Source: a virus
DNA length: 27,449 nucleotides
Direction: 5' to 3' (one strand)
Virus record (IMG/VR): IMGVR_UViG_3300048839_000087
Location: 1 to 27,449 of that record
A program made the position numbers and the translations under genes. Within the stretch, counting starts at the first letter, position 1; each line of letters starts with the position of its first letter. The notes below the pieces were generated by a model. That model saw only the letters and a list, made by a program, of their open reading frames with translations, did no database searches and was not told the origin of the DNA. Below, piece by piece: positions 22,932-27,257 of this stretch.

Positions 22932-23615
22932 TCAATGCTTTGGAAATTGAATGCTTGCCAAACCAAGACGACTGGCCTTCGATTCACCTTTGGTGCCAAG
23001 CGGCAGCCAATAGCAGTGTTTGCCTTCGTCGTAGTGTGGTTCAATCGTCCATCCGGGTTTCAACGCCCGCACCTTGTCAGGGCTTTGCGTGCCGAATTGA
23101 TGGTTGCACGCCCGCCCGCCGATCAGGGTTCCGTTCACTACCAGGCCATCCATGCGGCGTTCGCGGCAACCTGCATAGCGCCAGTTCGCGGCCCGGTACA
23201 CGTAACCCTCGTGCCCTTGCGTCTTGTCTGCAAAGCTCACAAGCAAGTCGTGCCCGTGGCGCCTCAGTTCGCGCACGCAACGCGCAAGCAAAAACGTAAG
23301 CGGTGCCCGTTCATCGCCTCGCACGAGTCGCGCCAGTTCAACCACGGTTTCGGCCCATCGTGTCGGCGGGAAAGTCCAAAACGCGGCGGCCACCATCGGG
23401 CCATCGCCACCGAATAGCCCGCCATCTAGGTGCAGGCTGCCCACCATCTGCACATTCGACGGCACGCGCCGGCTGTAGTGGTGGGTTAGTACCATGCCTT
23501 TTGCTTCTTCAAGCCGGCCGGTTCTGAAATGGAGCGCAGAGACAGGTATCGCACCTTCACCTGGCAGGGGGTGCCTGCCCGTGGTTCTACTTTCCACTAT
23601 CTGCGCGTTATTCAT
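22932..23615 (-). CDS. mom: Mom-like DNA adenine modification protein (GNAT fold)
   Basis: A 227-residue protein. Residues 40-52 (GMVLTHHYSRRVP) and 90-130 (VVELARLVRGDE ... LLVSFAD) and especially GHEGYVYRAANWRYAGC (about 134-150) are the landmark blocks of the phage Mu Mom family. Mom modifies adenine at N6 with an acetamido / methylcarbamoyl group and protects phage DNA from restriction. Two histidines and a tyrosine (H45, H46, Y47) are candidates for cofactor binding. The ATG overlaps the end of a small upstream frame. In Mu, mom expression is tightly controlled by Dam, OxyR and Com; no such sites can be claimed here. Homology is inferred from motifs; substrate identity was not tested. 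Confidence 0.8.
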   Translation of the reverse strand: MNNAQIVESRTTGRHPLPGEGAIPVSALHFRTGRLEEAKGMVLTHHYSRRVPSNVQMVGSLHLDGGLFGGDGPMVAAAFWTFPPTRWAETVVELARLVRGDERAPLTFLLARCVRELRRHGHDLLVSFADKTQGHEGYVYRAANWRYAGCRERRMDGLVVNGTLIGGRACNHQFGTQSPDKVRALKPGWTIEPHYDEGKHCYWLPLGTKGESKASRLGLASIQFPKH

Positions 23616-23743
23616 GTTAATGCCAAAAAAAGGACGTTACGGATCGTGCCCGACCCGTCTACGCGCCCAGCTCGGACGCACCGCCCCAAAGCGCCGGCCC
23701 ATGCGGGTGGAGTAGTCCTCATGGGCGCTTCGGCGTGACTCAT
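23612..23743 (-). CDS. Possible small ORF between the GIY-YIG gene and mom
   Basis: A 43-residue frame (MSHAEAPMRTTPPAWAG ... ) that overlaps the GIY-YIG stop and the mom start, each by 4 bp (ATGA). The position recalls com, which precedes and overlaps mom in phage Mu and lets it be translated, but no Com-type zinc-finger cysteines are present (one Cys only). It may be a leader for mom coupling rather than a true protein. Confidence 0.4.
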   Translation of the reverse strand: MSHAEAPMRTTPPAWAGALGRCVRAGRVDGSGTIRNVLFLALT

Positions 23744-24228
23744 CGCCGCACCACCCGGAAATGCTCGGCCAGCCTCTGCACTTTGCTGAAGGCCGGGTCG
23801 CACAGTTGCAGCTTGATGCGCCGCAGCGTGTCATAGCTGATCCCTGTTGCCTCGCCGACTTCAAGCAGTGCGTTGCCTTGTAGCGGCATCATCTTTGCCC
23901 TTACCCGATCCAATAGCGTCGGCGTGCCGGAGGCTTTAACTGGCACGCGCTTGGCTCGCCGTGCTTCTATCGCTTGTCTGCTGGATTCCTTTGGAAACGC
24001 CAAGTTGTACTTCGGGTTTTCCGTCATGATGGCAGTGCGCTCTGCAATGGTGGCCTCCGCCCTAGTTGGGAATGGTTCAACATCGATACGCGCCACCTGC
24101 TTGAACCATGAACTAGCTTGCTCGTGCGATCGTGTCCGATTCATCACGTTCATGGTCTGCCCAACGTAGAGCAACGTCCCGTTTTGGCAGAAATGACGAT
24201 ATAGGCATGGTGTCTTCATGCCCAGCAT
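23740..24228 (-). CDS. GIY-YIG endonuclease-like protein with HTH tail
   Basis: A 162-residue protein. The nuclease core has CLYRHF (residues 8-13, the GIY position), LLYVGQT (19-25, the YIG position), R31, H35, E64 and the NPKYNLA ending near 71-77. A basic linker follows, then a helix-turn-helix (LEVGEATGISYDTLRRIKLQL, about 122-142). Such proteins are found as free-standing phage endonucleases and homing-type nucleases. ATG at 24228 (AGGG just upstream) or 24219. It is the first gene of the leftward early operon. Confidence 0.82.
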   Translation of the reverse strand: MLGMKTPCLYRHFCQNGTLLYVGQTMNVMNRTRSHEQASSWFKQVARIDVEPFPTRAEATIAERTAIMTENPKYNLAFPKESSRQAIEARRAKRVPVKASGTPTLLDRVRAKMMPLQGNALLEVGEATGISYDTLRRIKLQLCDPAFSKVQRLAEHFRVVRR

Positions 24229-25335: not shown

Positions 25336-25560
25336 ATGACCGACGATTTTGTAGACACGATGGTAGTTCCGCGCCGGCAACACCCGCCGATGGACTTCCG
25401 GCCGGCAAGCCATGAAGCGGCGCATGCGGCCAGCGAGCTTGACGATGAAGACTCTGAATTCGGCGCACTCGAAGGACTCACGCACGGCATGCCGTATGTC
25501 GTCGTCGCGTGGGGGATCATCGCTGCTGGTGCGGCTGCGGCATACCTCATCTGGTGGTAG
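25336..25560 (+). CDS. Small membrane protein with acidic domain
   Basis: A 74-residue protein. The first 48 residues are polar, with a negative stretch (ASELDDEDSEFG); the last 20 (VVVAWGIIAAGAAAAYLIWW) form a membrane segment. It starts one base after the previous stop. No family recognised. Confidence 0.72.
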   Translation: MTDDFVDTMVVPRRQHPPMDFRPASHEAAHAASELDDEDSEFGALEGLTHGMPYVVVAWGIIAAGAAAAYLIWW

Positions 25561-25564
25561 CTGC

Positions 25565-25594
25565 TTGACTGACTATTGAACCATGCTCTATCAT
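25565..25594 (+). promoter_or_regulatory. Sigma70-like promoter for the structured RNA
   Basis: TTGACT (25565-25570) is followed by 18 bp and TATCAT (25589-25594), 5 of 6 matches to each box. The start would be near 25601, immediately before the TGGCGGAATC segment, so the RNA below begins there. Confidence 0.6.
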
Positions 25595-25600
25595 CAGTTC

Positions 25601-25702
25601 ACCATTGGCGGAATCTTTGGTAATGTGTGTGGCCCCTTCGGCCCATGCTCCACCCCGAAAGGGGACCGTGATTCCGCCACGGGGAGCAGGGACCGAAGGG
25701 GC
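25601..25702 (+). ncRNA. Structured RNA, C4 / P4-CI-like antisense RNA (putative)
   Basis: A nearly continuous 19-bp helix is made of GCCCCTTCGG-CCC-TGCTCC (25632-25651) and GGAGCA-GGG-CCGAAGGGGC (25683-25702), with an unpaired A in each strand. It closes a three-way junction with CCCC-GAAA-GGGG (25653-25664; GNRA loop) and CCGTG-ATTCCGC-CACGG (25666-25682). TGGCGGAATC at 25606-25615 is complementary over 10 bases to GATTCCGCCA (25670-25679), which holds the hairpin loop. It can pair as a pseudoknot or displace that hairpin. This layout and the repeated complementary segment recall the C4 antisense RNA of P1/P7 and the CI RNA of P4. Family membership is my recollection, not a covariance search. 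Confidence 0.68.
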
Positions 25703-25970
25703 TTCTTGCTTTCTGGCGCACTCGGGACGACTGTGTGTGCGCGACAGGGCCGCAACAGGCACATGCGGCATGGCGGGTTTTGGCGTAATGCGGTCGCCCG
25801 TGGGTGTCTGTCCGAGGCAGGCAAAAGGATCGCAAGCGTGGCGCCTTTGGATCGACCACGCCGAAGCACCGATGCCGCGGCTCCGGGAAGCAGAGAAGCT
25901 AGTCAACTCAGACAGGGTTGGCTTTGCTTCGCCCTCAACCACTCACCAAGAAGCAGATAGGACACACACT
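25703..25970 (+). other. Leader region between the structured RNA and the next gene
   Basis: No protein domain is seen in any frame. One plus-strand frame (from the ATG at 25623) stays open through the RNA into the 25971-26156 gene, with the RNA segment GCGGAAT a few bases before this ATG, as in RNA-controlled icd-like genes. I treat it as leader. The antisense frames lack conserved patterns. Confidence 0.4.
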
Positions 25971-26156
25971 ATGACTACACCAGTGAAGTTTGCAGACGAC
26001 ATCTTCGGCTTGCGGCTGCAAGTCGGTCAGGCTTTTATCGCGCTGGCCGCCCTTGAAGCAGAGATTCGAGGCGACATGCGCCAAAGCGTGCTGTTGGAAA
26101 CAATCGAACAGCAGCGCACGAATATCAACGACTGCGCCCCCAAGCCGGCGTTTTGA
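25971..26156 (+). CDS. Small phage protein (helical)
   Basis: A 61-residue protein: FGLRLQVGQAFIALAALEAEIRGDMRQSVLLETIEQQR is one long helical part, then a short tail. The start at 25971 is chosen because the upstream in-frame part lies in the RNA leader; alternatives at 25605 or 25623 would add 116-122 residues. It lies 7 bp before the ERF gene. Confidence 0.62.
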   Translation: MTTPVKFADDIFGLRLQVGQAFIALAALEAEIRGDMRQSVLLETIEQQRTNINDCAPKPAF

Positions 26157-26163
26157 GGTTGCT

Positions 26164-26772
26164 ATGAACGTCTACCAAGCAATCAACGCTGTGCAAGCTG
26201 ACTTGTCTCAAGTCGGCATTGCCAAGAACCGCACGAACACACAAGGCGCCGGGTTCAAGTTCCGCGGCATCGACGACGTGCTCAATGCGCTGTCGCCACT
26301 GCTGGCAAAGCATGGCCTCGTCATCATCCCGCGCGTCATCAGCCGCACCTGTACCGAGCGTAGCAGCAAGTCCGGTGGCGCGCTGTTCTATGTCGTCATC
26401 GAAGCAGAGTTTGACTTTGTGAGCGCCGAAGACGGCAGCAAGACCACCGCGCGCATGATCGGCGAAGCAATGGACAGCGGCGACAAGGCCACGAACAAGG
26501 CAATGTCGGCAGCGTACAAGTACGCGGCTTTTCAGACCTTCGCCATCCCGACCGAAGGCACGCCTGACGCCGATGCCGAAACGCACGAAGTCGCGCACGG
26601 CATGGACCCGCACACGCTGGCCGACTGGCTGCAAGCCATCGAGCAGTGCGACGATGACTCGTTTGCTGCGATGGTGGCCGATGGCCTGGCAGCGGCGCAG
26701 GAAGTGCGAGACCGCGAAGCTTGGGTCGCGATTCGCGCGGCCGGCAAGAAGCGTGAAGGAGCGACAACGTGA
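26164..26772 (+). CDS. erf: ERF-family single-strand annealing protein
   Basis: A 202-residue protein. The N-terminal 140 residues match the ERF / SSAP core: MNVYQAINAVQADLSQVGIAK, FKFRGIDDVLNALSPLLAKHGL, YVVIEAEFDFVSAEDGS, GEAMDSGDKATNKAMSAAYKYA. The last part (residues about 150-202) is acidic and helical. ERF proteins coat single-stranded DNA and anneal complementary strands in phage recombination and repair. The gene is followed by a Gp157-like protein. Confidence 0.93.
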   Translation: MNVYQAINAVQADLSQVGIAKNRTNTQGAGFKFRGIDDVLNALSPLLAKHGLVIIPRVISRTCTERSSKSGGALFYVVIEAEFDFVSAEDGSKTTARMIGEAMDSGDKATNKAMSAAYKYAAFQTFAIPTEGTPDADAETHEVAHGMDPHTLADWLQAIEQCDDDSFAAMVADGLAAAQEVRDREAWVAIRAAGKKREGATT

Positions 26773-27257
26773 AGTTGTACGAATGTGTTGCCGAATACCG
26801 CGCCCAACTCGACGCGCTGGCCCAGCTTGACCTCGACGCCACCACCTACTCCGACACGCTGGAAAGCATGGACGGCGACCTGAAGGACAAACTGCGCGCA
26901 GTGATTGCGTACAGCCTCGATCTGGAAATCGAAGCCACCGGCGCCGCTGCCGCAAGCAAGCGCATGAAAGATCGAGCCGAGTCGCTGGATAACCGCGTCA
27001 AGTGGCTGCGGGAATACGCCCTGCGCGCAATGGAAGCGACCGGCATGGGCGAGATCAGCACCGACGAATGGGCCGCGAAGGTGGCGAAGAAGCCGCCTAG
27101 CGTCGTGATCGCTGACGGCATAGAACTGCCGTCCGAATACGTGCGAACCACCGTCAAGACCGAGCCCGACAAGGCTGCGCTAAAGGCAGCGCTCACTGCC
27201 GGTGCCGTGGTGCCTGGGGTGTCGCTTGTGGCCGGGCATAGGATTCAAATCCGATGA
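26769..27257 (+). CDS. Gp157-like (Sipho_Gp157) phage protein
   Basis: A 162-residue protein from a GTG, overlapping the ERF stop (GTGA). It is helical in the first 110 residues (YRAQLDALAQLDLDATTYSDTLESM, AAAASKRMKDRAESLDNRVKWLREYAL). The end KKPPSVVIADGIELPSEYVRTTVKTEPDKAALKAALTAG is diagnostic of the Sipho_Gp157 family, linked to phage resistance or recombination. It is found beside single-strand annealing genes in many phages. Confidence 0.9.
   Translation: MKLYECVAEYRAQLDALAQLDLDATTYSDTLESMDGDLKDKLRAVIAYSLDLEIEATGAAAASKRMKDRAESLDNRVKWLREYALRAMEATGMGEISTDEWAAKVAKKPPSVVIADGIELPSEYVRTTVKTEPDKAALKAALTAGAVVPGVSLVAGHRIQIR

Follow-up and report, generated by a model that had tools for sequence, protein, structure and literature searches.

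A self-complementary RNA ahead of the ERF operon of an environmental phage suggests early-gene control with phage-specific recognition

How a short RNA might control the early genes that follow it is the question raised by one locus of the IMG/VR virus record IMGVR_UViG_3300048839_000087, a 27-kb virus fragment which was analyzed over its full length of 27,449 nucleotides (hereafter the window). To our knowledge, phage early genes under RNA-only control are represented by very few systems, chiefly CI of P4 and C4 of P1/P7. A first-pass annotation of the window had pointed to an RNA resembling these two. This RNA opens a 410-nt gap between a 74-aa open reading frame (ORF) ending at 25560 and a 61-aa ORF on the plus strand (25971–26156), the first one after the leader. 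Further downstream, likewise on the plus strand, follow an ERF-type single-strand annealing protein (26164–26772), whose operon is presumed to be the controlled one, and a Sipho_Gp157/Mu Gam-like end protection protein (26769–27257). Searches for relatives of the small flanking ORFs and of the Gp157 protein of the window yielded none. An additional ORF stays open across the RNA (TTG 25605 to 26156); it was judged to be non-coding, since the indels of homologous leaders are not multiples of three and some of them hit stops. On the minus strand, the window also encodes a GIY-YIG endonuclease (23740–24228), whose C-terminal stretch resembles phage transcriptional repressors and is the sole repressor-like domain seen in the window.

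From sequence and fold, the RNA is predicted to start at about 25601 on the plus strand and to stop at about 25715, with a length of about 115 nt. Directly upstream lies a sigma-70-like promoter, TTGACT-18-TATCAT (25565–25594, 10 of 12 positions matching), the sole one within the surrounding 701 bp, for which 0.2 are expected by the scan. Near the predicted 5′ end of the RNA, TGGCGGAATC (seqA, 25606–25615) is perfectly complementary over 10 nt to GATTCCGCCA (seqB, 25670–25679). The predicted fold is a three-way junction made of a bulged outer stem of about 20 pairs (5′ arm 25631–25651, 3′ arm 25683–25703) and two hairpins, namely CCCC-GAAA-GGGG (hairpin 1, 25653–25664) and CCGTG-ATTCCGC-CACGG (hairpin 2, 25666–25682), the second of which presents seqB. 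Thus, the long stem, both hairpins, the competing pairing and the good promoter described in the first-pass annotation are all present. The fold of 25627–25715 has an energy of -54.4 kcal/mol (z = -5.3), and none of 200 dinucleotide shuffles was equally stable, while the remaining leader of the window contains no independently stable structure (z = -1.15). When the upstream stretch was shuffled, a 10-nt complement in the geometry of the window appeared at a frequency of 8e-5. An ARAGORN search for tRNAs and tmRNAs gave none.

Following the 3′ arm, the U-rich sequence TTCTTGCTTTCT (25703–25714) sits where the U-tract of relatives is found, and the outer stem therefore looks like a (weak) intrinsic terminator. 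This U-tract is broken, and a simple terminator scan made no call at the stem. When truncated transcripts of the window were folded, a procedure which leaves aside kinetics and pseudoknots, the pairing of seqA with seqB (A:B) had a probability of 0.96–0.99 at lengths of 79–95 nt and of 0 from 99 nt onward, i.e., with the 3′ arm out. Among other loci folded in this way, L029, L252, and L273 resembled the window, and L015 did so partly. As modeled, the alternation between A:B and the three-way junction is the behavior expected of an antiterminator competing with a terminator.

The likeness to the immunity RNAs P4 CI and C4 holds for topology and logic. In P4 CI/C4 as well as in the window, a long outer stem, a small hairpin with a 4-nt loop and a hairpin with an antisense loop follow each other, the loop of this 5–6 bp hairpin complements a sequence farther upstream within its leader, and the RNA is located at the head of early genes. 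In P4, which served as control, the CI loop CCTGTGAA complements upstream TTCACAGG (seqA) and downstream TTCACAGGAGG (seqC). There are also differences. The outer stem of the window has a U-rich terminator-like tail, whereas the P4 stem continues with ATCGAGCG and has no U-tract. Moreover, seqA of the window is at most about 10 nt away from where the RNA is predicted to start and precedes the stem by about 15 nt, compared to more than 100 nt upstream in P4. C4 systems also possess a second target downstream near the ribosome-binding site (seqC in P4, a2/b2 in P1), whereas no conserved one was found here; a candidate in the window is an imperfect (70%) copy of the seqA stretch at 25771–25790 (plus strand), which as a possible counterpart of seqC is unsupported by relatives.

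Membership in the C4 family is a different matter. Rfam searches of the window gave nothing at gathering scores and only eukaryotic chance matches at permissive E-values. RF01695, whose membership threshold is a covariance-model score of at least 45 bits, scored 74.9 bits in the P4 control; the window does not reach this threshold, and the family was absent at E ≤ 10 in the 701 bp and at E ≤ 5 in the whole record. As there is no match to RF01695, the window RNA is not a C4 family member: it is C4/CI-like on paper and outside the family by sequence-and-structure score. The leader RNAs isrK and c4-a1b1 (RF01394, RF03163), which adjoin C4 in P4, were found neither in the window nor in the relatives scanned. 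A further parallel is offered by the plasmid antisense attenuators of pT181 and pIP501. Shared with them are the choice between terminator and antiterminator within a replication-gene leader and an incompatibility-like specificity. Their regulator, however, is read from the opposite strand, whereas here the controlled transcript itself, once terminated, would serve as regulator.

Searches with the window RNA at the DNA level, both exact and distant, against viral contigs, phages and plasmids revealed nothing meaningful, and the RNA is absent from the nearest ERF relatives L002 and L003, with the gap of L002 not being specially structured (z = -0.65). Counterparts were found by design. A geometry scan of 163 loci on both strands (1.5 Mb besides the window), with loci of ERF relatives taken from viral contigs and bacterial genomes, ranked the window first, followed by L015, L029 and P4 CI as positive control. 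A terminator-anchored scan found 17 matches in real DNA, compared to 3 after dinucleotide shuffling. When k ≥ 9, E ≤ -25 and a short enclosed region were required, the window, L015, L029 and L105 were left as 4 matches in real DNA, and the shuffled DNA gave 0; L105 looks like chance. The same type of scan also picked up, on the plus strand of an Omnitrophota MAG contig (L113), a palindrome GTGCCTAAC...GTTAGGCAC that resembles an integron attC site.

The window, L015 and L029, the latter two from environmental phages and on the minus strand, are the three known members of what we call class 1. Their common design consists of a promoter, a 5′ seqA, a terminator-type stem, hairpin 1 and hairpin 2 with seqB, with the U-tract of the window being weak. 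The promoters of L015 (TTGCCT-18-TAAAAT) and L029 (TTGACA-17-TATAAT) are spaced from seqA similarly to that of the window, seqA starting 12–13 nt after the -10 box. The seqA/seqB pairs themselves, TGCTCGCACCATG in L015 and CGTTGCGGC in L029, are wholly different, with a seqA of 13 and 9 nt, respectively. Their tails are TTTTTGCTTTC and TTTTTTGCTTTTT, of which TTTTTGCTTT is common to both. A complement within the terminator arm, considered for L029 and L077, was overturned; the geometry scan pairs the 5′ seqA with the hairpin loop instead.

Via this common tail, a second and longer RNA with a conserved CTCTCGCCAAGAG hairpin was reached (class 2). An exact 25-mer from it is present in at least 120 IMG/VR stretches of freshwater phages. 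Its layout comprises TATAAT, a 5′ hairpin, seqA, an outer stem ending in GGGGTTTTTGCTTTTGG, a hairpin with seqB and a small hairpin, and most tails read TTTTTGCTTTTGG. Accordingly, class 2 is a three-way junction under a terminator too, with its two hairpins swapped in order compared to class 1. None of 399 bacterial genomes, all from one order, contained the class-2 motif, and the RNA as query at blastn sensitivity found nothing in 50,697 phage and 72,556 plasmid records. A hairpin CGTCT(A)GAGTGGCATC(T)AGRCG, located after the -10 box and before seqA, is highly conserved in class 2 and absent from class 1.

Class 2 allowed the A:B pairing to be examined for covariation. Across 67 distinct sequences, 95.8% of the pairs of the named structure are formed, and covariation amounts to 0.229 compared to 0.113 in shuffled and 0.04–0.06 in slid controls. 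The A:B pairs 39–41/117–119 occur in all four Watson-Crick combinations, with the first central position being GC, CG, AU or UA in 26, 14, 13 and 8 cases, respectively, while ten pairs in outer stem and small hairpin are invariant. At the sequence level, this covariation proves the pairing of seqA with seqB in class 2, leaving action in cis or in trans undistinguished. The 94 sequences with a complement of at least 8 nt contain 50 seqA strings, which fall into 32 groups sharing no 7-mer; own A/B pairs are typically complementary over 9–10 nt, swapped ones mostly over 4–7. A second copy of seqA (seqC) as general target was rejected: further copies in class-2 contigs are no commoner than foreign seqA, and the RNA's own 5′ end is therefore the likely partner of seqB. 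Since the order of the hairpins differs, class-2 covariation supports the window RNA by analogy and locus, not by alignment, and the class-2 RNA profile has no match near 25600–25715. Hence, the covariation of TGGCGGAATC with GATTCCGCCA expected in the first-pass annotation was found in kind, through relatives, and not in an alignment with the window RNA itself.

The locus is linked to class 2 by the leader. A segment of the window leader (25878–25962, plus strand) aligns to the class-2 leader of L284 with a local score of 58 versus 19.1 ± 2.3 for shuffles, and to that of L230 with a score of 46. In addition, a profile of class-2 leaders matches the window once, at 25915–25960 (E = 0.014), just before ATG 25971. 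The window leader is thus homologous to the class-2 leader, and the window RNA therefore occupies the place of the class-2 RNA. The first-pass annotation had proposed the segment before ATG 25623 as the target of the RNA; seqA as target of the loop is indeed supported, whereas ATG 25623 as controlled start codon is unsupported because the homologous leader extends to ATG 25971. The genes that follow are not the same: the window RNA leads into the ERF operon, and in class-2 contigs the RNA leads into genes for replication initiation, Mom-like proteins and methyltransferases, with ERF and exonuclease genes arranged divergently on its other side. A Mom-like DNA modification protein is also encoded in the window (22932–23615, minus strand), as it is 3′ of some class-2 RNAs (L250, L264).

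Taken together, the window RNA is probably a self-complementary attenuator which heads the early operon and whose terminated product would act in trans as a specificity-bound negative feedback. RNA polymerase would start at about 25601, with seqA emerging first, and seqB, once transcribed, may pair with it to form a transient antiterminator. With the 3′ arm out, the RNA would either rearrange into the three-way junction with the outer stem as terminator, so that transcription would stop at about 25715 and release an RNA of about 115 nt, or transcription would continue across the leader into the ERF operon. In the released RNA, seqB is predicted to be exposed in a hairpin loop, from where it could bind seqA of a subsequent nascent transcript in trans; this would block A:B in cis and favor termination. 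Such a feedback would be confined to transcripts of the same seqA/seqB specificity and might serve superinfection or copy-number control. We infer the transcript, its termination and the antiterminator role for the window, and likewise the action in trans, the latter from the presentation of seqB in a loop, the precedent of P4 and the hypervariability concentrated in A/B.

Another explanation would be a standard terminator or leader hairpin whose complement arose by chance, since a GC-rich genome has many stable GC-rich stems. Given the rarity of the complement among shuffles (8e-5), the absence of the strict design from shuffled DNA and the counterparts in relatives at the same locus, which covary in class 2, this is extremely unlikely. 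A switch acting in cis only, in which the A:B antiterminator would respond to a ligand, a protein or the speed of transcription and in which A and B would drift as long as they pair, is a further reading: A:B and terminator alternate in truncated-transcript folding, class-2 contigs have no second seqA target, and covariation by itself fits a cis helix. It is nevertheless rather doubtful, since the variability is found mainly in A/B, with an invariant inner stem and small hairpin, which looks like selection for distinct specificities, and since the terminated form places seqB in a hairpin loop, as is the case for P4 CI and other antisense RNAs acting in trans.

Among readings that involve action in trans, an RNA aimed by seqB at a host RNA or at the RNA of another phage, with seqA as built-in decoy limiting its activity, would agree with the location of seqA near the 5′ end, where it could sequester seqB in its own or in a further RNA copy. 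It is very unlikely, as 32 specificity groups fit poorly with one conserved host target and no further target was found in the contigs. The first-pass annotation had also considered a role in immunity. An RNA made by a prophage, silencing incoming phages of the same type and perhaps having a second target downstream, would be in line with the P4-like topology, with seqA preceding the RNA as in P4, with the copy at 25771 and with the finding that heteroimmunity is determined by the c4 RNAs of P1/P7 (PMC12197685). However, RF01695 is not matched, no seqC is conserved, the class-2 motif is missing from the 399 bacterial genomes of one order, and neither a tyrosine integrase nor a serine resolvase nor ParA was found in 24–26 class-2 contigs of 20–56 kb, which are possibly incomplete; matches to HTH_3 in class-2 contigs were sub-threshold only. 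As no gene for integration or partition was found in the class-2 contigs tested, the data do not support lysogenic immunity, which we regard as unlikely. A presumed control of early genes of the copy-number or superinfection type fits better.

Extending the attenuator with feedback in trans to the whole group, we put forward as a tentative possibility that a large phage group without detected lysogeny genes uses RNA incompatibility: the terminated leader RNA would gauge genome copy number and shut off early genes, and hypervariable seqA/seqB pairs would keep co-infecting phages from silencing each other. If true, phages so far without sign of lysogeny would have a mechanism of exclusion or timing based on RNA. 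The data suggest an RNA switch over early genes with phage-specific recognition, previously undescribed as judged from Rfam, named phages, plasmids and a limited literature search; since this search covered an open library with few queries, a prior description elsewhere is possible. C4-like logic would thereby recur in a family outside Rfam with at least 120 environmental examples and 32 specificity groups, in which specificity, cross-talk and evolution of antisense control are testable directly via a ten-base swap. The seqA/seqB cassettes also represent a ready set of potentially orthogonal attenuators.

The leaders show a variability of their own. In one type (type A), found in the window and, for example, in L255, L251, L012 and L284, two direct repeats of about 8 nt are located after GGCTCCG and after CACCA, in the window as two copies of GAAGCAGA (25887–25894 and 25950–25957, plus strand). 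They match within a phage and vary between phages (GAAGCAGA, AAGGGAAGT, AAAAGCAA, TGGGTATA), with own pairs being mostly identical over 7–9 nt versus mostly 3–6 nt for swapped ones. In L029, L061, L260, L281 and L225, unrelated-looking leader types (GACCGTACTCCGCACG..., GACCGTCAGGGCGCG...) are found 3′ of the same kind of RNA, and RNA and leader therefore seem to be exchangeable modules.
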